Positions 8,810 through 41,752 of a stretch of 64,000 nucleotides of DNA are shown in pieces. Both the position numbers and the translations under genes were made by a program. Within the stretch, counting starts at the first letter, position 1; each line of letters begins with the position of its first letter. Source of the stretch: Apostichopus japonicus. Taxonomy: Eukaryota > Echinodermata > Holothuroidea > Aspidochirotida > Stichopodidae. Under the pieces are notes generated by a model, which searched no databases, was not told the origin of the DNA, and saw nothing but the letters and a program-made list of their open reading frames with translations. Location of the stretch: positions 10,133,501-10,197,500 of the forward strand of contig NC_092568.1 in assembly GCF_037975245.1 (NCBI RefSeq), in the 5' to 3' direction.

Positions 8810-9154
8810 AATACCCTGCTTCCCGAATACCTCTTTGTGAAAACATTTTTTTCTTTCTCATATAACAAGGACAGTACTATACATGGATAACCTGTCAGGG
8901 GTTCAATTGAGTGTTTCATCTCAAATATTTGGAACATACTCATTCATAAAAGTGGAATAAATAAGGCCATTTAACCCCAAAGATTTTTCTATTAGCTCTT
9001 AAAATGCGGGCTGAAGTTAAATTTCTCAGTCAACGTCTGCAATCCTTGTCACACGTACGACGTAAAAACCTCTCCGAGAACTGAAAAATGTCGTTTCCCC
9101 TGGGAGACAGAAATCAATACATAAAAGAGAGAGAATTAAAAAACAAAGAACAAA

Positions 9155-9176
9155 CCCCCCCCCCCCCAAAAAAAAA
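9155..9176. repeat. C13-A9 compound homopolymer
   Basis: Thirteen C residues pass directly into nine A residues. A similar C-run to A-run junction occurs near 38888-38910. Confidence 0.88.
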
Positions 9177-9832
9177 CCCATGAATATTCTGAAAAGGACA
9201 CTTTAGGCAAAATAATACTATTTTTTGAAGCAATGCTTTTGCATATATCACAGCCTTCATATAACATTTATGTACAAAAACACCACTCGATTTGTCTCTG
9301 TCAATCCTTACCGTCACATATTTTTTGTTTTTGTTTTTTTGGTGACAATTGTTTCAAAAGTTGATTTTTGTGTCCAAACTGTTAGAAACACATCTTGGTT
9401 CATACAGAGAGCAGTAATTTCATTTCGTGAAGGGTGCCAAAGGGGTGTATCTCCTAGGTTTATAAGCACTTTTGTACTTTCTAACACAAAAACAATATGT
9501 TCAAATGAAGTTAACTTAAAAAACTGATAGATCTCTTTGAAAATGCCCAAATTGCAGGAGTCCTTTGATAGAGAAAAAGCACATATAGTCCCAACCCACG
9601 TGGAGAAGGTAAAACGTAAATAAAACCATGATAGTCAAAGTTCACTTTACAGTAGTAGTAACCCAACCATGTAAGACGTCCAGGTGGAAAGTTACCATAC
9701 TATTATTGCAACACATCATTTGTCTTCCCCCCGCGCCCCCCACCCCATTTCACCAAATACACAGTCTTTTTTCTGGATATTTACTCCAGTATAACCAGCT
9801 CCACTCCTAGAGCTCTCAATTATCGCAAGATT

Positions 9833-12020: not shown

Positions 12021-12146
12021 TCATAATCCGCCTCCAGATCCGATGGCGTTTGGCCGGTGATCTTGGTTCTGCCTCTCCTCTGCTCCCTGATCGCGATTCA
12101 ACAAGCCAACAAGACGTCTCAGGATTGAGTTGCTTCTCCCCCTCTG
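12021..12146 (-). CDS. BCL2L11: Bim-like BH3-only protein, last coding exon (exon 3, C-terminus)
   Basis: Third coding exon, joined to 12601-12809 and 27829-28450. The acceptor is excellent: a long pyrimidine tract ending in TTTTTAG just before 12146. Its phase 0 matches the phase 0 donor of the BH3 exon. It encodes 41 residues (278-318) and stops with TGA at 12023-12021. The start of the segment, SILRRLVGLLN, can form a short amphipathic helix. It is followed by a polar tail rich in Glu, Gln, Asn and Gly. In vertebrate BIM and BMF a separate last exon also follows the BH3 exon and carries the hydrophobic C-terminus. Here that hydrophobic part is short and the tail polar, so it looks more BMF-like and a transmembrane anchor is unlikely. 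The acceptor is a tandem NAGNAG (TAGCAG), so Gln278 may be optional. Confidence 0.75.
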   Translation of the reverse strand, partial: QRGRSNSILRRLVGLLNRDQGAEERQNQDHRPNAIGSGGGL

Positions 12147-12600
12147 CTAAAAAGAGAATTTAATAAGAGAAAAGATTAGCTATTAAAGTAGTGAGCAAAG
12201 TACAGAAGATTAAGGAATAACTTCTGCACAAAGCAATCTTTCTCTAAAACAACACATTCAATAATAGTTTGAATCATGAAACAATATTGAATGTTTTCAT
12301 AAGTAACTGTCTAAACAATCATGCTACTGAATGAACTGTTAATTTTTAAGTATTAATACCCTGCAAAGTCCACAAGGTAGGGACCTCATCATAAATTGTA
12401 AGAAAAAGTTTGTCGGACAATTTAATTTGGGGGGGGGAGGGAACAGACGGTAGGAAAAAAAAGTTGCCCCGAATGGAGGACGAAACTGCAGAAGTCACCA
12501 CCGAATGAGGCAAAATAAGATCATTTCCTTCCTTGCGACACATGGATACATTTAAAAAATTCCCAAACTAATAACTTAGTACAGGAAATGGAGACGGTAC
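12147..12600 (-). other. Intron 2 of the Bim-like gene
   Basis: A phase 0 intron directly after the BH3 exon. The donor reads CAG|GTACCG, which is weaker than consensus; the acceptor is strong. It contains a short G run near 12430 and nothing else recognisable. Confidence 0.7.
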
Positions 12601-12809
12601 CTGGTAAAAGGTAGATTCAAACTCATCGCTGATTCTCCGCAGCTCTCGACCGACCTCTATAGCTGATTGAGATGGTCTCGACGGTGCCGAGTTGGCTCTG
12701 TCTCGGAAAGTTCTGTCTAAGACGAGATCTGGCAGCTCTTGAGCTCCTTCCCTTGCACTGGCTGCCTCCCGTGCACTGCCCTCGGAATAGAACCGTGTGC
12801 GCACATTAT
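12601..12809 (-). CDS. BCL2L11: Bim-like BH3-only protein, BH3 exon (exon 2)
   Basis: This exon carries the functional signature of a pro-apoptotic BH3-only protein, which binds the groove of anti-apoptotic BCL-2 family members and activates BAX/BAK. The acceptor CTTCCCAATAG precedes 12809. The first two bases (AT) complete an Asp codon with the G left by exon 1, and the exon ends in phase 0 at CAG|GT. It encodes residues 209-277. Residues 260-271 read VGRELRRISDEF. Hydrophobic anchors are V260, L264, I267 and F271, S268 is the small residue and D269 the invariant Asp. Human BIM has IAQELRRIGDEF at this place, so only three of twelve residues differ besides the conservative I/V change. RDRANSAP (243-250) fits an Akt-type RxRxxS site with a Pro at +2. 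The upstream half is Arg/Glu/Ala-rich and probably disordered. Confidence 0.88.
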
Positions 12810-12903
12810 CTATTGGGAAGAAAAAAAGACACATTTTGATCATGGCTATCGACTTTGCAAAACGTAAAAAAAAAAAAGAAGCTACATATATCCTTATATA
12901 GTA

Positions 12904-12934
12904 TCTATATATATATATGTATATATATATATAT
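12904..12934. repeat. (TA)n microsatellite
   Basis: Alternating TA run with one G and one C interruption, just inside intron 1 beyond the BH3 exon. Confidence 0.88.
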
Positions 12935-13121
12935 CACTTTCAAGATGCGTTCTTAGGATTCACAAATGATTTCGAGTTGGTTAGCATCATGTTTGATCTC
13001 TAGAGTAAGGCAAAATATGTCACCAAAACAGAACATTGTCCGATACAGGTGGCAAATGCCTACAGTGGTATTACGAACTTCTTTACTGGTTTCGAACATC
13101 TGGACGTTCAATCAGCATCCA

Positions 13122-13160
13122 TGGCCTAGTTGGTTAGGGTGTCCGCATATAAAGAGTGAA
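13122..13160 (+). mobile_element. tRNA-derived SINE fragment
   Basis: The segment GCCTAGTTGGTTAGGGTG followed by TCCGCATATAAAG matches the A-box and anticodon region of the better copy at 63458, apart from single-base differences. The B-box half is missing: sequence after 13160 no longer aligns. It is therefore a broken SINE head. Confidence 0.6.
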
Positions 13161-13507
13161 CAGAGAGAATATAAAGAGTGGTAAAATGGACCCTGATTTG
13201 CTTACAGCAATAAGTTGCCCTGTAAAACATGACTGTAACTTGAATCCATGTATCTCAACATGTCCAGCCAAGTAATGTACACTGTTTCTAGATTATGTCA
13301 TAGATTACATCAAAGTTAATGCATTTCCTCCTTTTAATTCATAAACTGAAAAATAATAACATTCTACACAAAAAAAAAAACCTTAATCGCAATACATTTT
13401 TTTTTTTTTTTTTTGTGATACCAAATAATTTCATTGCTAAATAAAGTTGGTGCTAAACATTGTGATATCTTCGATTCAACTTTATTATAGCTTTTACTTG
13501 AATAAAA

Positions 13508-13586
13508 AAATAAAAGAAGCCTTGAGCACCCTGTAGGGTGGATATGTGCGCATTATAAATCTCTGTTATTATTATTATTATTATTT
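13508..13586 (+). mobile_element. CR1/L2-type non-LTR 3' tail
   Basis: CCTTGAGCACC, a GCGC-ATTATAAAT string and a terminal run of TTA units have the form of the 3' end of CR1/L2-class retrotransposons (a GCGC...TATAAAT stem region followed by a TTA microsatellite). No coding part remains. Confidence 0.5.
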
Positions 13587-16500
13587 CAATATCCCTACTT
13601 TTTGTTCATGAATTGTTCTTAACCTTAGCACTCAATGACAATCTGTCTCCTGTTCGGTCCATCTATTTAAAAACCTGTTCTGATTTTACAACCACCATTT
13701 ATGTACACTACCTTATCAGTCTATATTTTCTGATAAACTGTGGTCTTCATAACTGAACTTATTGACAATACATTTGCTTCAGTTGCACTTTGATATATGG
13801 GTCAATGATCAGATAATTTGTTATTATCATCATTTTTATGGCTTTTCGTGCCCCCAAATTTTTTGGCTTATGGTGTACATACTAAGTATCGTAAATGCCT
13901 GCCACCACAACTAAACATTTATATTCAGGCATAACAGATGATTTCTGTAAAATATTCCACCAAAGAAGGATGAACTTTGGTTGTCTAACTTAAAAATATC
14001 TCTCGTCATAAAAACGCCTTGCAAATGGTTACAGAGATAAATCGGTACCAAACCTTCCTCTGCACCATCACAATTCCCCTTCTTGTCCCTCAATAACCCT
14101 CCCCCTCTACCTTTACCCAACTGAAACACCAAACAGAAACAACACTTGAGAAAGTCATTCAACTAGTTATCAACAACTTTGATATTTATCGGCGTGCTTT
14201 GACCTACAGCTCTACATATTTAAGGCAACTGACAGACCTATTGGGCAATACGGCGGAAGTTGGCACTTCCTCTTATAAGTACCAGCAAGTTGCGTTTTCT
14301 TCTAAAAACAAAAACAACAGATCGCTCTAAACTACTTTTAGTCCGTGAGTATTACGTGGCTGGCAGCCAAACTCTAAAACAGACAGCTCTCACTAAACCA
14401 AAACCAAAAACATCAAATTAGCTAGAAAATAAGAACACAACAAGACAAAAAAAAAAAAAGTTTCACATGAAATAAATCGTGAATAAGCAAGTCAGCTATT
14501 TTCAGTGTTTTCGTAAGTCAAATAACGAAATTGAAAATGAGAGTCTAAAATTGGCTGAAGGCAATATTTGGCGTCTTTTTCATTGTCCAAAATCCGTAGT
14601 TACAGCACTTAATAAAGTCTTACTCAAGCATGACAAAAGCCCTCTTGTTACTGTTGGCTTGAACCCGCGACGGGCAAAACACCGTCGCAGGAGGTGATAT
14701 TTACTCCCCTTCCCTTGGTCTTGATATTGGTTGAAATGCCTGGCCAATTTTTTAGATATGAATTCATGTACCTTTGAACCCTTAGCTGCACGATAACTTT
14801 TACAATATACTTCCTGACTAGCATACCAGCTCAAAGTACAAACAGGTGAGAAAAAAAAAAAAAAAAAAAAATTTAAACAGATTTTTAAAGTGACGCTTGT
14901 AAACTTAATTGCAAAGAAAAATACAATTTTTAAATTAAATGACTATAATATCTCCAAAATTATAATACCTCTCACTGGAGAGGGCTTCTTCCTTTTCGAC
15001 TCTCCCATGATGTTGATGTCTACAACGGTCATGAATAAGCGATGCAAAAATCGGCAGAGTTTTCCAAAACCCTGGAGGAAAGAACTTAATCCAAACATAC
15101 AGTGGCTGTTGTACTTCGGCTCTACCCTTGATGAATGTCGACTGCAGAATGAGTAGTACCTTGGGATAACCTCACATCTTTCCTATCCTTGGTGTAATAG
15201 ATCACAGCAAACATAAAGGTTGGGGAATCCCTTCACAAAATAACAAACACTATTGCACACAGGTAAAATAATCCTCAGATTGAGAAATCCCAAAACCACA
15301 ATACAGTTAGTATTTTTATCCAATGTATATACTATGAGTCTATCCCATAGCTTCACACAACTCACTTCACAACAAGACTGTGTGTCCCAAATCAAGTCTA
15401 AACTTGTTCTAAAACCTCATCTTGTTTTCAACAGCTTTTCTATAGCTCAGTGTTTGTTATTCAAATAATAGATAGAAGCAAAAGCTCACCCAGCTATTGT
15501 AAGCCAACCCGGGTGAATCAGAACTAAAAAGAGGGCGGTGGGCTGCCTATCATGACTTTCAATTATGATGTCATTGTTGTGCATGTGGCTGGTTCTATAG
15601 TAGCTAATCACAAACTTTTGTTTGTTATCTTGGTCAATGTTATTTGCATACAATACTACTGTGAACCAATAGGAAGATAACATAGACTTGACTGACGTGT
15701 GGGTGGGGCTTAAAGTTTGCCAGAGTAACAGATATGATGAAGGGCAATGTTCTTCATTTGTTTAACAAAGTAACAACTGTTTAGTACTAGCAGCAATAGT
15801 AGTACTATATCTGTAGTATACCCTAACCATGATACTATTGGGTTTTTTGTTGTTGTTGCAATGGCCTACCACAACACTCTCACTAAACAAGTTCTAAATA
15901 TAGCAATGACAGTCTATGCCTTGTAACAGGTATGAAATATTGTGTAGGAGGAAATTTGATAAACTAGTTAGGAAGTAGCTTTAGCAGATTGTTTTGTTGG
16001 CAGGACAAAGGATTCCCTGACATACGATATATACAATTTTAAAAAGCAAACTTAATGTAGCCCCCTCATTATTATCATTAGTATAATTCCTGTTTTTTTC
16101 TTGGGAGGGGGGAGGGGGAAGGGAGAGATTTGAAGAAGGGAAAGGGAGAAGGGATAATCTTGTCATCTTTAAACAAAGATATAAATACTTCTGTGAAAAC
16201 CAATGTTCTCCCCAAATATGCTAGAAATACAAGAAATGCCCACTCTGAATTGAGTACTTTGTCTTATCACATTTTTTCTATCCCGTAATGAATATCGCTG
16301 TGATAGTTTGAGAGTGAAAAAATGAAACTAAGATTACTGAGCATATATAAAAATAGAAGAAAAAAAGTTGGCATTTTGAGCATTTCTTAATCATCATATC
16401 AAAGGCTCACAATTGGAGACGGCGATAAAATTTACAAGAGGTAACTTTACCTGCTATGTAAATAATACTACGAAACAGAAATAAAACCCTGTCGTTAAAT

Positions 16501-17323
16501 TTGTCACAGATCTAAGCATACTCCTCCAATTGAGAATGTGGATTATTTCAAATGAAAAACAAACTGTACAGTAGATATATACAACTTACATACTGGAGGT
16601 AACCAGCTGCAGACTACTTTATGAAAATGGGGGGGAGGGTGGGGGAGATTTGGAGGTGGAAAGGGGAAGTTGTCAAGTTTTGAAATATTTCTGAGCATCC
16701 ACACATGTGCATCATCACCCTAGAAACTTGACACTACAAGTTTTTTTACTCTGCTCTTACAACCCAACGGGAAGTAAAACTTACCAGAGACATTGCACAA
16801 ATGAAGCAGACAACCTGAACTATTGAGCAAGTCTGCAGAAAAAGTCCCTAAAGCATATTTTTAGGATTTCCTGTAACCTTTTGCTCTTGTCACTGAATCA
16901 TCTACGTTTAAAGCAAAACTTTGTTTGTAATTAACTCAATAAATATTTATATTTATACAACGGAGACGAAAATCCATGTATGGTAAACATGGGTCGTCCA
17001 TGCATAAATTACAGTTTGTTGGCCTCGGTTCAATATATTTTATATGTGCTGGCAGTTAAAAACTAACATGGATGAATTTGCTGCTTGGATATGGCAGTCC
17101 TTTTTTTATTCTTAACAAATAAAAATGTGATTTGGAACAGAATACCCCTACAGTAGCTGGCTGATCATGGTTTTTATTCGGAACGTAAGATTTGCATTTT
17201 TGCATCGTTCATTTTCGTTCGTGAACTTTAGTGTGTTCTACAACTTTATTATCGTGAAGGATCTGGGTTCTAAAGCATGCTTCCTGTTCAGTGCTTAAAG
17301 TCACGCTATGATCAATCGATGGG

Positions 17324-17535
17324 TTTGTACTCAAATTCACACTTATGGAATTTGGAACTCAAACTTAATGGATTTTTGTACTTAAACTCACACTTATGCA
17401 GTTTTGTACTCAAACTCACACTTATGGATTTTTGTACTCAAAGTCACACTTATGGATATTTGTACTTAAACTCACACTTATGGACTCTTACTTAAACTCA
17501 CCCTTATGGACTTTTACTTGTACTCACTGTTATGA
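17324..17535. repeat. Minisatellite, unit about 28 bp
   Basis: Eight imperfect units follow the pattern TTTTGTACTCAAACTCACAC then TTATGGA. Units toward both ends are shorter and more diverged, and the central three to four are nearly identical. Confidence 0.9.
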
Positions 17536-19110
17536 ATTTGTAATAGTATTCTGGTCATATGGGTAAAGATTAATTACTCCACCCCCTCCCCCATTTAAAC
17601 CTCATTAAAGAAATATGTAATATGTAAATTATGTGGTAGCTCACAATGAGTTAATTATTCATCTCCTTCTCACCTAGTTTTACTGTGTGTGCTTTGCAGG
17701 CATTGAACTTTTAAGGGCAAATTACTTGTTGAACAATCTAGTGAAGTGTTGCCTTGATTTATTAACTCTTTGCTCTATGATGACTAAGCACACTGAAGTT
17801 ATTTATAACTGTCAAGTGTGGATTAACTGCTTTCTGTTATAATATAATGGTTGCCCAATTAAACAATGTATTGTGTAAACAATACACCAAGTACTGTGTG
17901 CGACAGATCTTAACTCCAAACAGGAGTCGCAAGCTTCTTCACAGAATATGCTTAGAACTAAGGTCCTAGCTGGCATTGGGGAGGCACAGGTATCGTTCAA
18001 ATGAATCTATGCTTCATAGCAGGCTCAGTCCCTCTACCAATAAATTCGCATAACCTTATAATTTGGACAATGACAACACTGGTTCATCAAACCCAACCGC
18101 CCCCAAACAACAACAACAAAACAAAAGCCACAAACAATGCAACCACAAAAAAAAAATGCAATACTGTAAAAATGCAGACCCTATATTGAAGCCGCTTGTT
18201 CCAATTCTTACTACGGTAGATTTTTAGGATAAATTAAGTACTACACATCTTACATGGGTTGTTAACAGTTCTGACATGCCGGTACAGTATGGCATGGTTG
18301 TGTACAAGTTGCAACATATACAAATAGCGTTATTAAGTTCATCAGATCTGCAGTACTACATATTTACAGCGAACCAGGCGTACAGCCATTTGAGTTAATT
18401 AACGGAAATGTTAATCAACTGTTTTGATTTCTGTTTTCACTTTTCAAAAGAAGCAGCTTACAATAACTTCCCATGAGCCGAGCGTAAATTCTGTTTTATA
18501 GTATTAGATTTGGTCGCATACATGGATATGGCACTGGGATAATATTACTCAAGTGGAAAAGAAAAACCAAGCTGGTTTGAGACATCGAAACATGAGTTGT
18601 TATTACTATCATTCATCAAGTGTAATGACATGTAACTTGATGGGCAACATTATAAGCCTAACTCTGTACATAACCCCTCAGTTAACTCTGTCAGTGATCG
18701 ATTCTCAAATTGATTATAAACAGTACAGCAACACAGTTTTGTTTTCCTTCCAAGTTAATACAGATGTGCAGGCACCATTTAATCTTCAATTATCTCAACT
18801 TTGTAACCAGTTTCCTGGACTTTAATTTTGACCTGGAGGTATTGATTATAATCGGCAGTTTGTCAGCGAGATTGCTCGGTGATATATTCAGTCTGTTCCC
18901 AGCGCTCTCCCAAATTAGTGAGCCTTCCTTTCTGGGTATTTCCCCTCGGTCTGATGCAACTTCCTGCTGTCTTTGAATTAGGTTTTGCAACCTTTGGGGA
19001 GTTAATGACGACAAGCTAGATTAATTGATTAAAATGAATCAATGGTTCAATGCGGCTATAAGCTAATTTGCATCACCAGTCATATAGTTAGTTAGGTAGG
19101 TAGGAAAGTG

Positions 19111-19431
19111 CATGTAGGAGCCAGGATTTTCAAAGTTGTGTGCACGACTATCTGAGCGGAGCGCCACCATCGGTTGGCGCGGAGCGTAAAAGATAAGTTT
19201 TGGTTTTACAACCCCCCCCTAGATGGCCGGAAACAGCCCTTCCCGAGTGTTCATACTGGTTCTGTGGCCTCATGCTAACTTGAGACACCTCATTCAATAT
19301 CACTTTTAAACCCAAAAAACAAACGAGTTAAAATATTAATATAGAATTATGGGTGTTTTAAAAAAAAGAAGATAACTTGGCCAAAAAAGTGTAGGCCCGG
19401 GCCCACAGTGCTACATACTGGCTACGCCCCT
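19111..19431. mobile_element. hAT-like non-autonomous element, diverged ends
   Basis: The right end reads CTGGCTACGCCCCTG, whose complement CAGGGGCGTAGCCAG is a terminal motif common to many animal hAT-type elements. The left end CATGTAGGAGCCAGGATTTT is a degraded match in inverted orientation. Inside are a GAGCGGAGCG/GGCGCGGAGCG repeat and a GGCCCGGGCCC palindrome near 19393. No clear target-site duplication remains and no transposase is encoded, so exact ends are uncertain. Confidence 0.45.
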
Positions 19432-19552
19432 GGGAGCATAGTAAACAGAGCTCATCATCTGTAATACAAAGCAAACTCAACCATCTCCATTGACCTTACA
19501 TATATCTTACTTATATAGCATTTCTCCTCACTGTTGCTTTTCTCTTTTGCAG

Positions 19553-19877
19553 GTAGTTCAATGGAGTCATTTTCCATTCCCTTTACATTTCCTGCACAAT
19601 TCCAGACTACAATCTATTTACGGATCGATGATGAGTGATCTGGGAAATACCCACTTCGTTACTCTTGGAAGCAGGAAAATGTTTGAAGCACGTACAGTAC
19701 CTAACATAAGGATCCGGTAGTTCCATAGAGTCATTTTCCATTCCTTAATAATACCTGCACATTCCAGACTACAATCTATTTACGAATCATGATGAGTGAT
19801 CTGGGAAATACCCACTTCGTTACTCTCGGAAGCAGGAAAATGTTTGAAGCACGTGCAGTACCTAACATAACATGTAC
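19553..19877. repeat. Tandem duplication, about 162-bp unit, two copies
   Basis: Copy 1 is 19553-19716 and copy 2 is 19717-19877. Both start with GTAGTTC and share long stretches such as TGATGAGTGATCTGGGAAAT and GAAGCAGGAAAATGTTTGAA. The offset is 164 bases at the start and 160 at the end, so a few small indels separate the copies. Identity is high by eye, pointing to a fairly recent duplication. Confidence 0.92.
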
Positions 19878-22589
19878 AAAGAGCCAGATTATTTACAAAA
19901 ATATTCAATCAGAACTTGTTAAACATTATACAACTTAAAAGGCCGCTTTTCAACTTACAGGTTCATTGAGATACCTACAGGTAGGTGCATAAAGCCAATA
20001 TTTATATTAAGGCAACTTTAGGGCTACGATCAAATGTGTAGTACTACGACACACCACGGCTGATCGACACTTCCAAAAAAGTACATGGTGACTTTCAAGA
20101 TAAGATCTCTGGAGGGCAACTTCCAAAGCAGACAGTTCCCAGGGACTGATGCTAAATATAGAGAAATATAACCAACAAGTATTATTTTCAGACTGTTTAT
20201 ATACAACTACATTACTTCTGCCCCAGCAACAAGATTACCAGCTGTAGCAGTTGTTAGAATCAACTCTTCCAATTTAGAATCATTATCATATAAATGACCT
20301 GGATGACAGGGAACAAACATAAAACCATTGATGGTCCTTGATATTGTCTTTTTACTTTACATATTCACTGACGATGATTCACCTCTAAACCCTTGTCTTC
20401 TTCGACAACCTGTAAGCCGGGGCGTATATCAGAAAACTTATTGTTACCACCGGCTGTTATAGAAGTAAGTTAACTTAGACAGGATTGCACAATAGCTAGC
20501 TGCTGAATATTGACTGGTTCGTATCTCCAAGCACTAGTTATTAGTGATACAAGTCCAGACTCCACACCCCTGTTTGTCAAGAGCTACTACTACTCTGGGC
20601 TTTTTCTGGTTTGTCAATATAGACCCAGTTGCTGGTTGAGTTTTAATCTGGTTGGCTGCACCACAAAGGGAGCAGAAAGATACAATGACTCACTTAAATA
20701 AATACAGATCACTGGGCTGGCTAGCTGTACTAATCAGTTGCGGGCAAAACCGTGCGGTAAAGCTTTGATTAAACACCGGCTCTCTCTCTCTCACAAGCAG
20801 TGATGGTGCAATAGCTATGTCCCAACAACAAATTTGATGAAGTAATGAAGTCAGTTTTAAACTTTAATTGCCTCATTGTTAATGTTTTCTTTACTTTTTC
20901 AAAGCCAGCTACAGTAGGACCCTTTTGAGCATTTCCCAATGAAATTAAATTGTTCTAACAGGTTCCATTATCCTGTTTAGTCCTAGGAGAATAATTTTTC
21001 ACAATTAATTAAACATGGACGAGGAGCCCTTTTGAGAACCCCCACCGTTAACTTGTTTGACCAGTAAGACTTGGAACCCCCCCCCTCCCCCCAACAGATA
21101 AGTGACACATCTAGACCTAATATTCTTCAAGGCAACTAAAGGTTACTTGTCTTTGGTTCTTCGTTTGCTTTTCAGTGAAAGAGTTGTGAAGATTTCAAGG
21201 GTTAAATATTCATTGAACAGATACGTAACCAAAAAGATCGAGGGCCGTAGGTAAAGTTATTATGACATCATAAGCAAATTTAAAGCCATGATTCAGTGAG
21301 TAAGATTTCAAATCATCTCTCCATATGCGCTGATCTTGAAACATATGGCATGGCTACCAGTCAGTTACCCTGGGTGCATATATTATATACACCAACCATA
21401 CCCATGTACAGTATTTATGTACATGGATGAGTACCAGGGTAGGTACATACCACTGTAGGTAAGTACTGACAGTCCGAGGGTACGCAAATGATTTGTAAAT
21501 CTCTGGGGAGGTTTCCATAGAAACAACAGGAAACAAAAACAAGAAATATTTTGATCTTACCACATGTCACAATTTAACATGATGACATATTGGACCTAAA
21601 TGCTGATTGGCAGGTACATGCATTCTTGTATCGCTGTTAAGGTTACCTATAACTTTTCTAATGGAAGCTATAAAACTGTTTCACCAAGAAGCTAATTTCC
21701 AAGTGTGAACAAGACAGCACTAAGAAACAATATTTTTAATTTCGTTTTATTCAGGGAATATCAGGTACCAATACCTTTTTTACATATAATTAAGCAAACA
21801 AACTCCCCCGTCTCTTCCCCCCCCCATTTAGTTCCTTAAATTATGAAGCTGTTAATGAACTGCTAGAACATATCTCTTTTAGCTTCGTTCTCTCACAAAG
21901 GAATTTTGGACAAAAATGTCTGATTAGTGAAAGGAAAGAAGTATTTCATGTAAACTTAGCATATGTCAAGTTGGGCTATACTGAGGGCATTTTACAGCCT
22001 ATTAACATTTATTAATCCATGCGAAAGTATTTTCTGTTCCACTGTAAATTAAACAATAACATTCCAGAGGCGTTGGTTTCTATCGCTTATTTTTAATCTT
22101 CTCTTGAAGTAGAACATTTCACTTTGCAAAAATGAAATGATTCGTTATCCTTACGCTTTAACGAAGCTTTCACTGAACTGCAATCAACCTTCCACAGAAT
22201 GCATAATTTCATTTTTTTTTACATTGTTGATTATGAAAACTGATTCTGAATATATATGAGATATATGCTTCCATGCAACTGGAGTGGCAATTCTTTCATT
22301 ACTTCACATTTTCTACTATCAATAATCTCTATTTCAAAGAAAATCAAAAGCAAATGCGAGAGAATGTAATATTATTAATTTAACGTTTCTGAGTAATCCA
22401 GTACGCTATCGATCAGGACAATTCACTCAAGTTGTAAATATACCGTAACTTATAATGTTTATAATATGTACATAAAAGACAATGAATATGTAACAGAATG
22501 AATGCATATTTAAATTCAGAAAATGAGATGAAAACAAAACGAGATGATTGTTTTTTTTTAGTATCATGTAATTTTGGTTTGTGATATCA

Positions 22590-22835
22590 CTATGTATGTA
22601 TGTATGTATAGTGATCTTCCCACAAGCAGGAACTCGCGAAAGAAGCCATGGAGGCTTATAGACTCGCAAGCTGACCGTAGCCAATCTCTCGGCACACATC
22701 CATTTAACGTCCATGTCGGGAAGTTGTTATTGAACAACACCCTTGCCAGACGACACACATTGCTGTCGGCGGGGAATCGAACCGGGGATCTCATGACTGG
22801 GAGACGCCGGCGTTAACCACTAGGCTATACACACG
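22590..22835 (-). mobile_element. tRNA-derived SINE with (CATA)n tail
   Basis: On the minus strand the element begins with a Pol III A-box, TAGCCTAGTGGTTAACGC (22827-22810), followed by a B-box GGTTCGATTCC (22783-22773). A tRNA-unrelated body of about 160 bases follows and ends in (CATA)n at 22610-22590. This is the standard SINE layout. The three short open frames across it have no protein meaning. The body differs from the copy at 63458, so the family has variants or chimaeras. Confidence 0.8.
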
Positions 22836-24206
22836 CCCCACACTATGAATGACACACTATGAATGACATGGTGAAGAGGAGGAGTGGGGGGGGGGGAAGA
22901 AGGGTGCGGGCAAGGATATCTTGTGTCATCTTTCTAGAGGGAACTAACTATCATATGAACTGATATACGGTGAATAGAGAACAAGGATGCTTTTTCATTG
23001 CAAGCACGGTGGAAATTTAAAACGCTATCTGAGGCTTGATTTAATAGCAGAACGTCTAGTCAGCTGATGAAATTGACGTAATTATGGAAAACTTCACGTA
23101 ATTATGGGTCGGAACATAACGCAGGTGTATAGCATACATCCAGTCAGATGCAGGCAAAAAGAATACATATATTCTCAATAAGTAGTTTAAGCTAGAAGCC
23201 ACACAAGGATGGATGATTTCCTACAGCTCAGGTCATTCTCCAATAAAGATCTTGAAATTTGATTAAAATACACAAAAACTGTATTCATCCTGCCATTCTT
23301 CATCCATCTTTATCGAGAATAAAGTCACCTGGGAATAATTTTCATCCAGTAACCCATCATAAAATCCTATGCAAAATAACCAAATTGCTCTATAAGCGTA
23401 TACAAAGATGTATAGTAGTTTTTTAAAAAGATGTAAACAGTTCTTTTCATCCGATAGTAATTTTATATGACAAAGTTCAAGGCCTTCTAACCTGCTAGTA
23501 CACAAAATCTAAATATTCCCGAGAGTTGGTTAAACGTTTTTAGCTCTTGCCTGCCTCTGTCCGACCAAATTTTCTGGTAAACACCAGGGTGTCACCTCTT
23601 TCTTAACACAAATCTACAATATCTGAGGTTTCCTGTACAATTACCATCCTAAACCTTAAATTGTAACCTGTGTAGTGGCCATTTTGCCCATAAACGGTAC
23701 CTTCACGTTTTTTGTTACGCTACGTGACAGAATGCATGTACCCCCTGAATTTACAATTCTATCCCAACAGAAAAATGAAAAAAAAAAAAAACCAATGAAT
23801 TTGTGTGACCCCGTTAGGAATATAAGGTGAAACAGCGCCCATGGAATTGAAATAAATTTACCATCGCAAAGTTCATTCAACCATGTCAATTCTAAAGACT
23901 TCAACAAAACCCTTCTAACCTATTTATATGGCAGGACTATTGTGTAAATTTATGTACACTGAAATCGTTACGACCACCAATGTTTATATCTTTTGTGAAC
24001 AAATCTGATCTCTGATTTAGACAAATATTTAGCAACTATCAAATTGTCTGTAGGATTTTCGGAAGTTTCGGTTTAATTGGCACTTTGTAAGACATATTTC
24101 GAAATTTTTATTATCCACCTCTTAAAATGATAGAAAACTATATTCACTGAGTCTTTTTCAACGCTGGGTCTCCTTCTGTCTACGGAATTTTGTAATATCA
24201 ATGGCA

Positions 24207-24625
24207 ATTGCCATGGTAACAAAGCATTAATTATACTGTACTGCAAGCTTGCAGATATTGCTAACTACGACCAGAAAGCCAATCTTTGGATGTGCATGAC
24301 AACAATCATGAAATTGCAGCACCTGGACGATAACAACAACATAATTCAAGTTACCTTGACACTGCCCTGCAAAAAAAAATTCCCATCTACCCCATCTTCG
24401 GAAATTGTGAATGAACCCGTACAACCGTGGCAACAAGAGATCTCCATTTGTTCCCACCTATGACGTTTGACGTCACAGCCAGATAGCTCATAGAAACAGC
24501 GGTGTGATCTCTTTCAAAAATATAAAAAAGCTTACTCGTCAAATTAGCTGAGAACAGTCCATTCAGCAGCGAGGGAGACTCATTTCATGACTGTCTGGAG
24601 GAATTCATTGTGTTGCCATGACAAT
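24207..24625. promoter_or_regulatory. CRE and X-box-like motif cluster in Bim-like intron 1
   Basis: A perfect palindromic CRE, TGACGTCA, lies at 24468-24475, preceded by a half site (TGACGT at 24461). Three RFX X-box-like motifs flank it: ATTGCCATGGTAAC at 24207, GTGGCAAC at 24427 and GTTGCCATGACAAT at 24612. CREB and RFX motifs are known to co-occur in enhancers and promoters. Function here is inference. Confidence 0.3.
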
Positions 24626-24830
24626 GAAACTGCCAATTACTCTCCCTTTGAACGGCAAACAACTCCCTACTGCGGTTAGCTACATTTTTGATCTCTTAAT
24701 TGTGATACTTTGTATGTAGCCGTTTCAACCTTTTCAGTCCAAAGGACATCGGACACGCCTGCACTTCAAATTTAAGTAAATAGTCTATAGATATGCTTAA
24801 TACAGGTCTACTTAAACAAGCAGGCCATAG

Positions 24831-24852
24831 AAAAAAAAAAAAAAAAAAAAAA
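24831..24852. repeat. A22 homopolymer tract
   Basis: Twenty-two consecutive A residues. It may be the tail of a decayed retroposon, but no recognisable body precedes it. Confidence 0.85.
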
Positions 24853-25646
24853 TAGATTTCAAATATCTGTTTCGGAGGAATGTAGATCCATTTTATAATG
24901 GTTAAAATAGGTTCAAAAAGTCTGAAGCATGCAGTTATAATAGTTCAAATTCCATGTGGTGGAATTGGGTACATTGTTGATGGCTTTTAATCAACCAAAT
25001 GGAAAACTGTTTGTTTATTCCTAAAATGGAACTGATTTATGAAAAGGGGCCCATCGCAGTCTGATGCTCCCTGTGCCACCCTCTGACTCTGTCTATACCG
25101 TAAACAATGCATGAACGGCCTACGGCACAGTGAGCACTGCCTTTTCCTTGGGCTTGTAGATTGCTAAGTTTTTGCTATCAAGATGATGATGTGTGTGTGA
25201 TCTACCAGCCCATTGAATTATTTGTGACACTGTTCAATATTTATAATGCAAAAGTCACAAAGTTCTCAAAATCCTGTGGATCTGTACACCAAATGATAGA
25301 TCAACATCCTTACGATACAATTTTTATCATTGGGAATGCAGCCATTTTATATTGCTACCCTAATTACCCGATAACTTGATCCCTGCAGCCACATAATCCC
25401 ATAAACTTTGATACAGAATAAACAAACAAACAAAAACAAACAAATCAACACAAACACAAATTGCTCACCTCTGTGGCCCTATCGACTAAATCCTTTCAGA
25501 GCTAATTAATTTGTCGCGTAAAGCCCCTTCAGCTCTTACCCAGATAGTTGAGAGTGTGCAATTTTTTGACATCACATCAAACACATACAAGTTTCCATTA
25601 TATGTCAAATCAGTTTGGACTGCAAATATACCATAATATTAACTGA

Positions 25647-25941
25647 ACTGCAAATTAGTATATTTGTGCCTGACAGAGGGTTTTGTTTACTTATTAAACA
25701 GTTTTTAAAGGGATTGCCCGTAAAAGACACAAAAATTGTCAATAACAATTCCAAGTTCATGTCATGACAAAACAATGTAAAATTAATCTACAGTACTTCT
25801 ACCATGGAAGAAATCACACTATATACAACAGCACCATGCTGACCCTACTGCAAATTACTGCCAGACAGAGGCTTTGTTTACTAATTAAACAGTTTTTAAA
25901 GGGATTACCCATAACAGAAACCAAAACTGTTGATAACAACA
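25647..25941. repeat. Local duplication, two diverged copies about 191 bp apart
   Basis: Copy 1 (25647-25748) and copy 2 (25846-25941) share ACTGCAAATTA, a GACAGAGG-TTTGTTTACT stretch and TTAAACAGTTTTTAAAGGGA. A second short repeat, CACCATGCTGACC, occurs at about 25833 and 25944. Confidence 0.75.
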
Positions 25942-27828
25942 GCTCACCATGCTGACCTCACTGAGCATCCCTCTCAATACACTGTACAAGTATTACAGCC
26001 ACAAGGTCATTTTAAAATAGTGTCAACAATCTACTTCCCCCATCCCTCTCTACCTAATTGTACAATCACTGACCCACTTTCCAGGTGTCCTGGTACTTAA
26101 TTGAATTAATGCCTCCATATGTAAAAAACAAAACAAAAACAAGTTAACAATTAATGTAAATTGCAAGTTGTTTACATTACTAGTCCCTACCTACACAGAA
26201 AACCTACTTCCCAAAGCAATGTACTTTGCTATGCCAAGAACCAAGTATTACTGTAATGTCCAGTTTGCTCATTGATCACAACAACTCTCCTACAGAGAGA
26301 CCAAAGCAGAACATCTCCACAAATCCACTCAAGCATGTGGTAACACACACCGCATGACCTTCTTTGTCTCGAAAGCTCATTCATGGTGCGTGCGGTGTAG
26401 ATCCACTGTTCAATTCTCACGAAGAAAAGGAATTGGCTCGGTGCCAAGAGCAAGAAACATGCGCTGCTGACTTGAATACACTGTGAAGAAACCAATTACG
26501 CACAGCAAATCTCGTAACATTCATCGTTGGCAAAGTCGGGGTCTCCAAACTTTTCCATGATCTGCATTTCTCACAGAGTGTGACACTTTCAGCCCATGAG
26601 ATGAACTTATGAACCCATCAAGATGGAAGAACAACATTTGATGGCAGCTTGCCAATACGGGTGAATGACCATCAAAACTAAATATACTTCCCCTTTGTTT
26701 CCTCAAATACACACAGCACGCAATGAGCAATCCAGTGTTTCTGACACAAAGCTTAAAAAAGGTGATGTCATCGACCCAAACTTATGACAAAATTCCAAGA
26801 AACAGATATTTTTTCTTAAAATTTTAACTACTGTATGTAGGGTTTTTCTAATTAAAGAACAAATAGAAAAAAAAAAAAATCAGAAACATATTTGGAAAGT
26901 TAAACCTGAGTTCATTAACCTCCTACTGTAACTCACCACTGAATTAAAATGGTAAACATTAGCTGAAAATCTATTAAAGCCATCAGTATTGAAATTCCCC
27001 TAAAAGTGCAGGTCGACTTTTCTGTGTAGAGTTAGATTCCGCACGGTTTTGTGTACAGTAGACCTGTAAATAGCACACTGTACGTAACGATGCCATCCAT
27101 ACGGTATGTAATGTTACACTATCAAGCAGTTTTAGAATGTTTATTTTTTTCATCATGTAGTTCAATCTTTTATCATAGTTTTAAAATGTGTAATAGTAAG
27201 TTGGCCTGATGCTTCGATCCTAGCAGGATCTAGTTTTAAAATAAACAGAATAATCTTCTGTGATGCCTTCTTCTACTTGGCCGATTAAACATACTGGAAA
27301 TTTTTTAGGGTTAATCATTTCAATTAATCTGGAATGAACATGGATTACAGATACCAACTTTGTTGATGGGGGAGTGGGAGTAGTGGGAATCAACAATTTA
27401 ACGGCTGCAGTTCTGAACGGGACAGATTTCAGAGATGCTATTCCGGGCACAGACCAGGGGGTTGCAGAGAAAAGCTACCAAACAAATTTGTGGTGAAAGC
27501 TCTGAATTTTGAAAACTTTCTTAAAAACATACCATTCCTAAAAATACCATGCTTCAGAAAACCAGGAAGATGACGAAAGCTGGATTACACTACGAGGGCA
27601 CAATTTTCCCCCCGACATCATGGACTATGTATGCTTTTGAAATTTTCCGAAACCATTAACCATTCTAAATACTTAATCAACGACAGATCGTGCCACCGTG
27701 GACGGCGAAAAAAATTTCCGATGGCAGAAAAACGCAAATACGAGAGGGCGGGGAACGATGATACTCATATAGTTTGAGTGCTATTTAATTAGGAAAACAA
27801 TTTTTGAAAATAAAGGTGACTGCCTTAC

Positions 27829-28450
27829 CCTGTTGAACTAAGCGCTGACGCAGTCTTAGATCCTGAGAATGAGAATCTCCAAATTGCAGTTGGATGCGAG
27901 TCTCGAAAAATACTGGTGTGGCAGGAGGCGTTTGGGTTCCTATAGAACTGAAAAAGCGTGGCGCGGATCCGTAGCCCGAGGACATTGGCGAAACCGCCTC
28001 CCAGGATCCCATGGGCGAAAAGCGTCTCATGATAGAGGAGGAGGAACAATGGGAAGGAGTCACAAAGCTACAACCAGGCGATAGTGGACTTTGGCCCAAA
28101 GGCGACGGTATACTTATAGGGTCAGTACTGGTTGGACTACTGCTAGTTGCCCCCTGGGGTGATGAGGATTGCTGAGGGGATTCAAATATATCCCCTTCCT
28201 CCTCCTCCTCCTCTTCCTCCATCTCCTCCTCGGAGAGGATGATGTCCGAATCATCCGGTAAATATTCTATGTCCATTTCTTCTTCCTTCTGCATACTTGT
28301 TTGCCTCTCACCGTTCCTCCCATAGATATCGACTACAACGCGCTGTGTCCACTTGCCTCTCGATGACCACGCCCTCCGCCGTGGTGAGTAGGGTGACCCA
28401 GAGGCTGTAACTGACTGTTTCGTGGTCACACAGATATCAACTTCATTCAT
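27829..28450 (-). CDS. BCL2L11: Bim-like BH3-only protein, first coding exon (exon 1, N-terminal 207 residues)
   Basis: The first in-frame ATG is at 28450; the open frame extends upstream only through a GTG. An acceptor-like CTCTACCTGCACAG ends at 28468, so the exon probably starts at 28467 with a 5' UTR exon upstream. The donor CAGG|GTAAGG leaves one base (G), matching the next exon. Reading order: an acidic run of Glu (residues 74-85); a Ser/Pro-rich region with about ten SP or TP sites (91-155); MRRFSPM at 141; SSGYGS at 157-162; and GTQTPPATP at 171-179. Human BIM has the same order: MRR, SSGYFS (RSK sites and a beta-TrCP degron region) and STQTPSP, the LC8 dynein-light-chain motif that tethers BIM to microtubules. 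The order of these motifs, not overall identity, is what marks the protein as Bim-like rather than another BH3-only protein. BMF also carries a TQT motif but lacks SSGY. Confidence 0.85.
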
Positions 28451-28463
28451 AATACAACAGCAT
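28443..28463 (-). promoter_or_regulatory. Short upstream ORF overlapping the Bim-like start codon
   Basis: ATG at 28463 opens a six-codon frame ending in TGA at 28445-28443, past the main ATG at 28450. It lies within the proposed first coding exon, so a spliced transcript would carry it. An overlapping uORF of this kind usually lowers translation of the main frame. Confidence 0.4.
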
Positions 28464-30357
28464 GAATCTGTGCAGGTAGAGATGAGAGACAGAGAGTCGT
28501 GGGTGAGAACAACAGACACGGTAAATATCAGATTGTTTCAAAACAACTGTTGACAAGATAATCAAAGAACCTTGAGAGGGAAATATCTGACCTATTTTTG
28601 CTTTTGTAAAGAGAAGACCCTTATCAGACCTTGGAGATATTGATTGGTTTAAACACTATAGTATACAGTTCACCAGTTCTTTGGATTATAAGTTACAACT
28701 ACAGCCAATTGTCTTTGTCCCATTTTATCTTTGGGGGGGGGGGGAGGGGAAGCTTAGTGAATAAATTCTCCTATGGGAGGTGTCCACTATATTAAGGAGG
28801 TAGGGAGAAGGTGGGGCACCCATGCATGGGATTTATGGTTTAGTTTAATATCGATATTTGAGTCACATAGAAAACAGGAAAGGGCTCTTGAACTCCCATC
28901 TTCCCTACCCGAGTCATAAATATGTCGCAGCAAACTAACTATAACGTAAATTTCTATCACTTCAAGCTGCTTTGTTGTTCATCCATCTCCACGCAATGTC
29001 CAGGGTTTTCAAAATCTTCTGCATTTATGGTAATGAACTTCACATGCTACTCAGAAGTGTAAACAACTTACATGTATAGAATAAAAAGTAAGGAAAAAGA
29101 CCTTCACCTCTGATTGAAAGTAGATCACACAAATTGCAAATTCAAGTCTGGACATGTTTTTTTGCAGAATGAAAAGTGCAATTACAGAGGTTTCAAGTCA
29201 GTACAGAGAGGTCTCGATACGCTACTGTAACACTCACTATGCAGTATGAACAGACCATACGTACGCACACAGACTAGCTCAGAGATCAAGCCATTTGCAG
29301 TTCTCAACTTTAGCTTCATGCATTAACGAGGTCATTTGCCAAAGTGGGAACAATAATAACTTCCTGTATTGTTGTTTGTCTGTCTGTCAGTTAAATCATT
29401 CCCTGTTGAACAGTTGCCTGTGATATATATATACTGTAATATATGTCTGGATCAAAGTCTGCAGCAAAATGTGTGCTGAATGGGCAGCCTGCACAGCTTG
29501 AGTATTTTTAGATCTATACGCTGAAGACTGGATCATGCAAACTGACACAGGGGTATTGTTTACTATTCTGTACATAGTTGAATATTTCACTGTCTGAAAG
29601 AAGCAAACCTGTTCAGTAAGCTGTTATCTTAAACCAAAGACACATGTGTGGTTGTGAAGAAGGACAACTCCAATATACCCTCCCCCCTCCCTCCCCTCCC
29701 ACAGAGTTCAGACAAGCCTTGATAAATCCATTTGGGTGCAATCCTGATTTAACAGTCACAACACAGGGCTGCCCTTTTGTCAATTTGTGATGTCATATTG
29801 CCATCAGGAGGTGAAATACATAGTTGTGTACATATCTTAGACAGTGTATTGAAAGTATACAAGTAATGAGTAATTTCAGCACAAAGATGCTCGCCAGAAT
29901 GAACGAGTGATGAGGGTGGGGGACTAGAACATTTTGGAGTCTCGGAAGCAAAAATTACCTTAAAACTGACAAAATGTCTTTGCTAGCTAGACAGGATGGA
30001 AACAGGGACTAGACAAAGATGCTGTTCAAGTAAGCTGTTGGGTGTTCTGTAAGAGAATAGATTGCCAGATTTCTTAAGGACTAAGTTTTCTATGAAACTT
30101 TCAAATTGGTCAGCTACAAAAAGATTCAGAGCAAATATTCCATATTATCCCTTTTACTGATAATGCTGAGGTTTGAAAGCAAAAAAATAAAATATAAATA
30201 AATAAAAATATAAATGCATGATTCCTCAATTTAAGTCTTAAATGACCTTTCCAAGCTGACTACTGTGATCTTATGCATCATGATAGGATACATTTCAATT
30301 CATAATTTCTGCAATCATACACAACGTAAACAAATGTACTGAGTCATAATGACAGTA

Positions 30358-38235: not shown

Positions 38236-38835
38236 CTCATCTCTCATCTGTCCTCTTCGTGCCTTGTGGCACATAAGGCCATCACGCTCTGTTTCCACTT
38301 GTCCCTGTCTCGTGCACTTTCCCTTGCCTCATTCCAAGTCTTCCACCCGCCTTGCTTTCTTTCTCTTTCCACTGTCCTCCTCCACGTTGTTTTTGGTCTG
38401 CCAACTTTCCGCTTTCCTTCTGGCCGCCATGTCAGGGCAATCATACAATGGTGATCATTTGGTTTCCTTAAAACATGACGAATCCAATTCCATCTTCTTC
38501 TTTTGACTTCTTGACTTATTCTTGCAGTTTGGGTGTATTCATTGAGCTCATCCATTGAAATGATATTGGGCCAGAATATTTGTAGTGCCTTCTTCAAACA
38601 CTGGTATTGGAAGGAATCCAGTCTATTTTCATCACTTTTGTTCATTTTCCACGTTTCGCAACCATAGAGAAGTACTGGTCTTACCAAAGTTTTGTATAGC
38701 TTGATTTTGATTTTTCTTCCGTACTGTTTGGAGCTCCATATCTTGTTCAATTTAGTAAATGCAACTCTTGCCTTGTTTATTCTGCTATTCATTTCCCTCT
38801 CTCCACCTCCTTCTTTGCTTACTATTGCACCTAAG
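38236..38835 (-). mobile_element. 5'-truncated non-LTR (RTE-like) retrotransposon with 14-bp target-site duplication
   Basis: A 600-bp insertion encodes the C-terminal part of a reverse transcriptase protein: the YLG motif at the truncation point, then LLYGCETW, RRRWNWIRHVLRKP and GRPKTTWRRTVE, ending ALCATRHEEDR and a stop at 38246-38244. These motifs follow the catalytic domain in RTE-type and related non-LTR elements. The 3' end is a degenerate GATGA-type tail. The insertion is flanked by perfect 14-bp direct repeats TATGCATAATTGAT at 38222-38235 and 38836-38849, which places both ends exactly. The frame is intact over the remaining part but lacks the endonuclease and catalytic RT domains. 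Clade assignment is less certain than class. Confidence 0.85.
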
Positions 38836-41752
38836 TATGCATAATTGATACTACAACAAAATTTAATTTTATCAGTTCTCACCCCAACCCCCCCCCCCCA
38901 AAAAAAAAAAATCTGGATTTTATTGAAGACTAAACATCCCTATAAATCCTGATATATTTGCCAAGGAATGAAAAGCCTAACCTGATTTCCCCATGTTTTG
39001 TTATGTATGTCTGTTATTTAAGTATTGTTGTAGTTGTAAATATGGCAAATGTTCTTAAGAACAACACACTAAAAAAGGAACATTGAGGTCAGGATTTAAA
39101 TCTGCCACATCAAACTTATTATTTACAATTTAACCGACTCAGGCTCTTTTATTAGCATAATTTGCACATTAAGAACTACTTGTTTCGGTTTCCTCTATCT
39201 TCAATAGAACTCTTCCATGTCAACTGCAATAATTATTTAACAACTTTTTTTTACTTTAAATTTATTTTTGAAAAAGCTCTTTTCATTTCAAAAACAAAAG
39301 AATCCCCCCCCCCCCTCCCACTTGGAAGTGGTTACACTGGCAATTAGCGGAACTTTACATGACTAGTTGTGTTACATAGTTGCATGTCTAAAATTTTCAC
39401 AACTGTGAAGCAACAATCGACAATTCCCATGTTTAGGAAGAAAACGCGAGCAAATTTGAAGGATGAGAAAACGGAGAGAACCTTTTTTTGAACACTCAGC
39501 ACTTTTGCCGTAATTAGTACGATACGAGGAATACAATAAAGAAGAAAAGGGAGAACTAAAGAAAGAAGGGAAAGAGAAACGACTTCGCTGAATATGTTTA
39601 TTAGAAATGATGAAAATTCTGCAATAGAAAGTAAAACTTTGCTCTAACAATGGAACTGGTGAGGAAATAGCAACTTTGAAAAACAAATACTTTGAAAACT
39701 GAAAGCAACATGAAGGAAAATATTGTTGAATAACTGTTTGTTTTAGAAACCTATTTATAGTGTTCAAAACAAAACAGAACAAGTAAAGACAACACTCACT
39801 CACTGTAATGCCAATATGTTTGTTCACGGAATGATCGACCTAAAAGGTAAAGCATATATCGATACATTTTATATATAATCTCGGGGAAATAATTTATCCG
39901 AGTATTGCATCACAGAGTGCTATGTAATATGGTCAAACCGCTATACGATACAGCGGTTTTTGTACACAGATACCATATTATTTAATATGAAACAATATTC
40001 CGATACTATTCATAACTGCTACCCAAAATTTGAACACTCTTATATATCTTCCCTACATCTGTCTGTTATATCCAACATACCAACTACTCTAAGATAAAAT
40101 GAATGGATATAGATTTAAATAACTTTACACCTAAATGTTCAAAATGACTTTCTACTATATCCTTGTAACCACAAAGAAACCCTAACCATGGGAAAGATAA
40201 CCTTCCATGCTATAAACATCCTATCAAAATTCACTCTGAAAAGCAGTTCAGCTTTCCGCCTCAAATGTTGGTTGATTTTGTCATAGTCATGTCGAAAATG
40301 CTAGAGTGCCACACAGAAAGGTTTTTCCAACAGCCTTGACAGTTGTATAGAAGAACCCCAAACACAGATCCTGATTGGCAATGCCTATCAAATTATTTGG
40401 CTCACTGCCAAGAAAACAGTCAATGGGTTCTCCCAGTAACAGCTGATCCTTGGGTGACACAATAACAAATACTATGGAGTGAAGGTCATGCGTGTGTGTG
40501 CTGCACTGCTAAATACGAAATGTGCTTACAGGCAAGAATATAGTATCTAGATATCAACTAACACAGAGCTGGTCTTGGTTGTTTACAACAGTGTGTGCGT
40601 GCGCGTGCGAACTACAGGTGAAGAGTGGATGCCAGTGGTAAACAACAATTGTGGTGCGGACAATTAAAGGGGGATATTAATCTGCTGAGAGGGTTGTCAA
40701 TACCTTTCTTACAATTTTGAATTCATTCAGAGGAGAACAATGTACAGATAGGGAGGGATATATCTAGAAGAGTAATTGGTTATTGTTTTGTCTGATATAT
40801 TGTAGGTTTTTTTTCCATCGATTAGAGAATCACGGTCAGCCTTTATCTGATTTTTTTTCCTCTCTTTACTTTATATTTGAAAGGAAACACTGTTATATAT
40901 CTTCCCAGACTCGCATGACACCTTGATAAGTTTCACAAATTCTATAATAACGACAAAACAATACCAAAGTGGTTCTATATACCTTCATTAGTTTTTATCA
41001 TCTATTTATTCCTAAGCAAACAAATTATCAGGGTTTTCCTAAATTTGTGCTGGCTTTTGTTCCAAGGACGTCCTATTGTTACTCCTAAGAATGAAGGCAC
41101 AATACCTGCTGGTCCGAAGAGGAATAGAGGTGAAGGGTTATTGCACTTATGTGACATCTCCAATATACAATATTGCTAAGGATATGTGATGAGCCTCATA
41201 AATTATGCAATGCTACTCGATATCCCACAATAATGTAAATTAATTGACAATTCAAAAAGTGAGGGGGGGGGGGGGGAGAGGAGAGAAGAAGAAATTTGGT
41301 GGATTAACTTCATTATTCCCAGATTAACTTCCATTTGGTGAGGAAAAGTACTAGTTAACATTGATTGTCTACCCACGCAGCCTGGATCTACTAAGTATAG
41401 AAGGTCTCATGTCTTTCTGAGACAAAATTTTAGCAGGTGGGTTTGAAATCTCAAGATCCCCTGTTGCAGGCCTGTAATGTGAAATAAATGTTGGTATCTT
41501 ATGTTCAATGTTTATGTTACCCATAGTTACAAGGTCAAAGTGAAACAAATGCAATCACAAGTCACATTAATAGATTAGATAACATATAATATACATAAGA
41601 ACCCTTGGAAAATATAATGACTCCAGATTTACGGTGAGAATACTCTTTTAATACTGTTTTAATGGGTGATTCTCTTAAAACTTGATATCAAGGCTTTGTG
41701 GATATGTATCGCTTTATAAAATGATTTATCTTTCGCAATTGATGAAGTTACT

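Follow-up and report, generated by a model that had tools for sequence, protein, structure and literature searches.

Potential BH3-only proteins have already been reported from echinoderms. PMC8998228 lists entries of 118 residues for S. japonicus, 373 residues for S. purpuratus and 350 residues for A. planci, which were retrieved by searches seeded with the human proteins Bim, Bad and Bmf; it places the BH3 of these candidates on a single exon and calls for experimental evidence (PMC8998228). The major isoforms of BIM are described in PMC4695108 as carrying the dynein-binding DKSTQT in exon E2 (E2A, E2B and E2C, without introns), the BH3 in E4 and then E5, and according to PMC7022251 BH3-only genes, with the exception of Bid, generally have their BH3 in the next-to-last exon. 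Here we describe a three-exon gene on the minus strand of a 64,000-nucleotide stretch of the sea cucumber Apostichopus japonicus (contig NC_092568.1, positions 10,133,501 to 10,197,500), which is referred to in full as the window and in which all coordinates are given. A preliminary description made from the letters of this stretch had proposed an echinoderm origin, and the species bears this out.

By its sequence the locus is very probably a genuine BH3-only gene of the sea cucumber. The analysis established that its exons are open, that signals for splicing exist at their ends and where the motifs lie, and it gave a helix by prediction, a similarity to BAD, a weaker similarity to BIM and nine places with a Bcl-2 domain in the genome. 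It is best described as a BAD/BIM-type BH3-only gene, which the name BIM only half fits, and with a probability of roughly 0.72 this gene, which has a single genomic match, encodes a protein that is largely disordered, is subject to regulation and sets off mitochondrial apoptosis, a figure that covers both the kind of protein and its mechanism. As echinoderm BH3-only candidates are already listed in PMC8998228, the gene is a more complete example of an established kind; what is added here is a 318-residue model that spans a 15-kb intron, together with the mixture of BAD and BIM features. The titles and abstract beginnings of open-licence papers contained neither an invertebrate combination of BAD and BIM nor a proposal that BAD, BIM and BMF are duplicates of one gene.

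Gene model and splicing

Splicing of the minus strand reproduced the arrangement given in the preliminary description, with three exons (622 nt, 209 nt and 126 nt, the last including the stop codon at 12021-12023; Table 1) and introns of phase 1 and phase 0, which in the predicted model join into one open frame of 318 residues. The intron directly after the BH3 exon was also recovered, as a phase 0 end six residues past the BH3 phenylalanine. The outer limit of 28467 given there lies 17 bases upstream of the ATG at 28450. Judged by eye, the splice signals of the model were acceptable: the donor of exon 1 (CAGG/GTAAGG) was good and that of exon 2 (CAG/GTACCG) was weaker, being the weakest of the splice signals, while the acceptors read TTTCTTCCCAATAG/A before exon 2 and TTCTCTTTTTAG/CAG/A before exon 3. 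Among the best candidates scored in the A. japonicus assembly there was no second match to exon 1 or exon 2.

Exon 1 lay within a stop-free frame of 250 codons; no frame longer than 195 arose when the window was simulated 60 times with a first-order Markov model. That the frame is open by chance or is a decayed remnant, with no gene behind it, is very improbable, although the S/E-rich composition would ease weak profile matches; the Pfam matches of exon 2 and the register of its flank with BAD, both given below, also argue against it. Between 12000 and 28600 the repeats of at least 60 bases were two pairs in direct orientation, with none inverted, and nothing in them accounted for the exons. 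A Pfam scan of the 133 other open reading frames (ORFs) of at least 70 codons in the window, those of the 15-kb intron included, gave E 0.0009 at best, and the four families that appeared among them offered no hint of a gene between the exons.

The model could alternatively combine two unrelated transcripts, with exon 1 as part of a different gene and translation of the BH3 exon beginning at an intronic ATG. Upstream of exon 2 its frame stayed open as far as the ATGs at 12843 and 12834 (minus strand), and a start at 12834 would give 78 residues plus the 40 of exon 3 (distal acceptor of the NAGNAG pair), i.e. 118 residues, the length printed for S. japonicus in PMC8998228. We consider two transcripts improbable: the phases are compatible, splice signals are present at both ends, the frame of exon 1 continues without a stop up to the donor, no known domain occurs in this exon, and the scanned ORFs revealed no Pfam-detectable gene between exons 1 and 2. 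An automatic gene model that was cut short would likewise yield 118 residues, so the published entry, which is also from an echinoderm and probably from this very species (118 residues there and 318 here, compared by description), may be the present gene without its first exon; this is an arithmetic of length, not of identity.

The model carries its BIM-like motifs in one exon and the BH3 in the next, followed by one terminal exon. This plan agrees with that of BIM, but the position of the BH3 exon is common to other BH3-only genes. The introns flanking the BH3 exon of human BIM are, we presume, also of phases 1 and 0.

The BH3 exon and its flank

A hmmscan search of exon 2 against Pfam ranked Bcl-2_BAD (PF10514) first, with 27.2 bits against a cut-off of 28.2 (E 5.8e-6). 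Second came Bclx_interact (PF08945), the profile of the BIM-type BH3, with 19.2 bits against a cut-off of 25 (E 1.2e-3). The whole 318-residue model scored 21.2 bits and 18.1 bits with these two profiles, respectively. Exon 2 was the sole match of either profile in a six-frame search of the whole genome, at 28.4 bits for PF10514, which is barely above its cut-off of 28.2, and at 18.9 bits for PF08945, which is below its cut-off; with 21.5 bits for the BH3 core, PF08945 at no point reached 25 bits. The BMF profile (PF15185) had no match in the model and none in the A. japonicus genome (human BMF control: 197.1 bits), and the Bcl-2 fold (PF00452) was absent from the three Pfam families that matched the model at E ≤10.

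Alignment of exon 2 with the human proteins gave scores of 74 for BAD (reached by 0/500 shuffles), 52 for BIM (2/500) and 41 for BMF (0/500); the Pfam models of these references score them at 316.7, 70.5 and 197.1 bits, respectively. Of the seven sequences of solved structures that matched exon 2 at E ≤10, six were BH3 peptides, half of them from BAD and half from BIM, and the seventh was unrelated; the best was BAD with an E of 0.15, which is not significant alone. The BH3 motif L-x3-[small]-D was present as LRRISDEF. Across all six frames of the window the pattern LRR[ILVM][GAS]DEF had a single occurrence, and the looser L...[GAS]D[EDQN][FILMVY] had seven. AlphaFold2 predicted for exon 2 alone a long helix over the BH3 (exon residues 47-67, best block with a predicted local distance difference test score (pLDDT) of 97) and further helices at 12-20 and 32-39 in blocks of pLDDT 53-76. 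The hydrophobic moment of the protein was at its maximum in the BH3 helix.

Ahead of the helix, TFRDRANSAP stood in register with PFRGRSRSAP of BAD, at a score reached by 6/5000 shuffles of the flank; the best stretches of BIM and BMF were reached by 459/5000 and 4421/5000, respectively. A narrower, anchored test of the RxxSxP element gave 15/100,000 shuffles. Its serine is residue 248, 16 residues ahead of the first leucine of the helix, and the offset between RxxSxP and BH3 is 22 residues here and 21 in BAD. The FRGRSRSAP stretch of BAD is its 14-3-3 site adjoining the BH3. BAD ranked above BIM for exon 2 because this flank (FRDRANSAP) adds score, not because of the BH3 core. By profile, alignment and flank, the predicted BH3 exon is nearer to BAD than to BIM.

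The first exon

The preliminary description had listed MRR, SSGYGS, TQT and the BH3 in the order of BIM, and this order was found (Table 1). The succession MRR, SSGY, TQT, with at most 40 residues between neighbouring motifs, arose in 0/200,000 shuffles of exon 1, and the looser RRxS, [DS]SGxxS, TQT in 5/200,000, the motifs in both cases having been picked after they were seen. An untargeted chain of collinear similar words scored 164 against BIM (3/400 shuffles), 105 against BAD (141/400) and 110 against BMF (250/400). PASPG of human BIM, with which PLSPG of the sea cucumber protein was paired in this chain, is presumably the region of an ERK site; at two higher word thresholds SPLSPG was paired otherwise. 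SSGYFS of BIM we take to be its beta-TrCP degron region. Judged by composition only, the product of exon 1 would be disordered.

A Pfam search of exon 1 returned nothing informative (best E 0.026, below cut-off). Bim_N (PF06773) had no match in the model at E ≤10, whereas a human BIM control scored 69.9 bits, and no hydrophobic C-terminal tail was found, the highest mean hydropathy of any 19 residues in the model being 0.6. One match to Bim_N elsewhere in the genome (C2, outside the window; E 0.56, below cut-off) was taken as chance because the same search also matched 2/14 control genomes, both of them prokaryotes.

Table 1. Features of the candidate BH3-only gene and their positions in the window.
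Feature	Position	Strand	Remarks
Coding exon 1	27829..28450	-	Residues 1-207 + one base, from the ATG; acidic, Ser-rich N-terminus of disordered type
SPLSPG, proline-directed site	28073..28090	-	PLSPG aligns with human BIM PASPG (word chain, including the lowest threshold)
MRRFS, RRxS basophilic-kinase-type site	28016..28030	-	Residue 141 on; MRRSS in BIM
SSGYGS	27965..27982	-	Residue 157 on; SSGYFS in BIM
GTQTP, TQT of dynein light chain (LC8)-binding type	27926..27940	-	TQT at 172; as in BIM/BMF (STQTP in human BIM)
Phase-1 intron, 15 kb	12810..27828	-	ORFs ≥70 residues scanned, no convincing Pfam domain
Coding exon 2	12601..12809	-	BAD-like segment with BH3
FRDRANSAPS, RxxSxP 14-3-3-type site	12679..12708	-	At the place of FRGRSRSAPP in BAD
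BH3 helix IEVGRELRRISDEF	12619..12660	-	Residues 258-271; Pfam, solved-structure matches, predicted helix, hydrophobic moment
NAGNAG tandem acceptor before predicted terminal exon	12144-12149	-	318 or 317 residues; would give two isoforms, one glutamine apart
Predicted terminal exon	12021..12146	-	Amphipathic SNSILRRLVGLLNR, without tail anchor (hydrophobic moment, hydropathy)

Chromosomal place and genome context

The gene was located on C8 (43,008,630 bases) of an assembly of 671,581,487 bases in 35 contigs, of which C8 makes up 6.4%. According to PMC4695108, human BIM lies at 2q13. Matches to the Mad3/BUB1 domain (Mad3_BUB1_I) in the A. japonicus genome were confined to C11. As BUB1 is a neighbour of human BIM and the gene described here is on C8, linkage to BUB1 gives a relation to BIM no support. 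Matches to PH_14, which we take to be a mark of the PLC-beta type, were found on C8 at 12.56-12.77 Mb, 2.4-2.6 Mb from the gene, and one match to the kindlin N-terminal domain was found on C8 at 16.07 Mb, 5.9 Mb from the gene. In the human genome PLCB3 and FERMT3 are near BAD, and PLCB2 and BUB1B are near BMF. The linkage on C8 is weak support because one chance placement there has a likelihood of about 6% and the distances are of megabase scale. PLC-beta_C (PF08703) had no match in the A. japonicus genome or in any genome searched and was uninformative, and Trm112p (PF03966) had no genome match at E 0.01 with 13 candidates scored, which is not read as absence. Matches to the Bcl-2 domain were found by six-frame search at nine places on C1, C7, C10, C13 and C18; these are not nine proven genes.

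The PH_14 matches formed two sets, at 12.56-12.60 and 12.73-12.77 Mb of C8, about 170 kb apart, and are perhaps a PLC-beta gene pair. At the right end of the window a kinase-like exon was recognised by eye (62240-62599, plus strand; GQGGSAVVIKARDTF...VAIKIL), with no Pfam match at E 0.01 and a weak match to a PDB kinase (E 0.074). A second exon of this kind, HYCMVYELLQPNPLYHYFKK, at 9147-9341 (plus strand) of L004, appeared to continue it, and together the two are apparently the beginning of a divergent kinase. The frames at 38244-38882 (minus strand) and 53655-54011 (plus strand) looked by eye like the C-terminal ends of reverse transcriptase proteins of the long interspersed nuclear element (LINE) type; for the latter, which was among the 133 window ORFs scanned against Pfam, no reverse-transcriptase family was listed.

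Evidence against the reading, and descent

Several results weigh against a regulated protein of BAD/BIM type. The BAD profile stayed under its cut-off in hmmscan, for exon and model alike, and the bare 21-residue BH3 core scored slightly higher with the BIM-type profile (21.5 bits) than with that of BAD (19.1 bits); by sequence the two families cannot be told apart from the core on its own. When the flank of exon 2 was aligned locally without regard to register, the result was significant for none of the three proteins (BAD 359/5000, BIM 401/5000, BMF 1006/5000), and the argument from the BAD flank therefore depends on shared position. In exon 1 the tests of motif order were post hoc, as the motifs had been selected after inspection, and GTQTP lacks the D-K that BIM and BMF have ahead of TQT. 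When the word chain was run with stricter word thresholds, against BIM only, its score was reached by 32, 8 and 99 per 1000 shuffles, depending on the word threshold, and with block shuffles by 66, 19 and 357 per 1000. Gapped alignment of exon 1 was not significant and did not single out BIM (BAD 50/500, BIM 130/500, BMF 129/500 shuffles). The terminal exon alone showed no significant similarity to human BAD, BIM or BMF and is the weakest part of the model. Because the motifs are post hoc, the untargeted tests weak to moderate and the gapped alignments not significant, the resemblance of exon 1 to BIM is suggestive and not proven.

Descent among BH3-only proteins is hard to settle because, beyond a helix of about a dozen residues, members of the family share little, and in PMC8998228 a convergent origin is considered for some lineages. 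The two orthology readings that follow concern descent and overlap with the reading of kind and mechanism given above. The preliminary description had called the gene a Bim orthologue. What stood of this was a BH3-only gene whose first exon has BIM-like motifs arranged as in BIM, and whose exon plan is BIM-like; what did not stand was the assignment of the BH3 exon, which is closer to BAD, and it was further undercut by the absence of a Bim_N match and of a hydrophobic C-terminus from the model and by the BUB1-type domain on C11. A true BIM orthologue, whose BAD-like 14-3-3 site arose by convergence or as an echinoderm addition, thus seems unlikely to us. It would account for the succession P-x-SPG, MRRxS, SSGYxS, TQTP and BH3, for a chain score that was outstanding for BIM only, for exons resembling E2 and E4 as described in PMC4695108 and for the score of the bare BH3 core. 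Differences from BIM (BCL2L11; PF06773, PF08945) remain in the missing D-K, in the 14-3-3-type site and in a BH3 exon that profile, alignment and flank all place nearer to BAD, to which the gapped alignment of exon 1 and the separate chromosome of the Mad3/BUB1 domain are added.

Orthology to BAD (PF10514), with the BIM-like motifs of exon 1 as chance words in a Ser/Pro-rich disordered stretch, is doubtful, although less so. The likeness lies in the BH3 GRELRRxSDEF, in the nearly equidistant 14-3-3-type site FRxRxxSAP and in the profile that matched exon 2 best; the untargeted exon 1 tests against BIM, the weakest at 99/1000 (357/1000 with block shuffles), also fit this reading, as does the sharing of C8 with PH_14 and kindlin matches, whose human paralogues PLCB3 and FERMT3 are near BAD. 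Against it stand the order of MRR, SSGY and TQT, which none of the 200,000 shuffles gave, the presence of SSGYxS and TQTP in the sea cucumber protein, and termini without significant likeness to those of BAD: the score of the N-terminus was reached by 141/400 shuffles in the chain test and by 50/500 in gapped alignment, and that of the tail against the BAD C-terminus by 4158/5000. BMF (PF15185) shares TQT ahead of a weakly alike BH3 (the score of 41 above), and it differs in that its profile matched neither the model nor the genome.

A further possibility, which we put forward tentatively, is that the sea cucumber gene has retained the pre-duplication state, in which deuterostomes had one regulator that later gave rise to BAD, BIM and BMF of vertebrates. 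The ancestral protein would have been under 14-3-3 control at RxxSxP, which BAD kept, and under LC8 anchoring and turnover by a phospho-degron, which BIM kept and BMF kept in part, and in vertebrates each copy would have taken over part of this control. In the human genome BAD is beside PLCB3, BMF near PLCB2 and BUB1B, and BIM near BUB1, an arrangement that would fit whole-genome duplication. The gene lies on one chromosome with PH_14 and kindlin matches and not with the Mad3/BUB1 domain.

Proposed mechanism and significance

If the gene is expressed and spliced as predicted, we infer the following course of phosphorylation, binding and cell death for the BAD/BIM-type protein. In healthy cells survival kinases would phosphorylate serine 248 of the RxxSxP element, and 14-3-3 would then keep the protein off the mitochondria. 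Binding of LC8 at TQT may also restrain it, and SSGYxS may serve as a degron-like element in phospho-dependent turnover. Once these signals cease, the BH3 helix GRELRRISDEF would occupy the groove of Bcl-2-type guardians, and effectors of the Bax/Bak type would be freed from the guardians so occupied.

The role of cytochrome c in echinoderm apoptosis is disputed, as stated in PMC7022251, and the gene offers a defined protein for probing how mitochondrial apoptosis starts in these animals. If one protein indeed combines controls of the BAD type with those of the BIM type, it would connect three families of vertebrates, and the order in which BAD, BIM and BMF separated would become testable.

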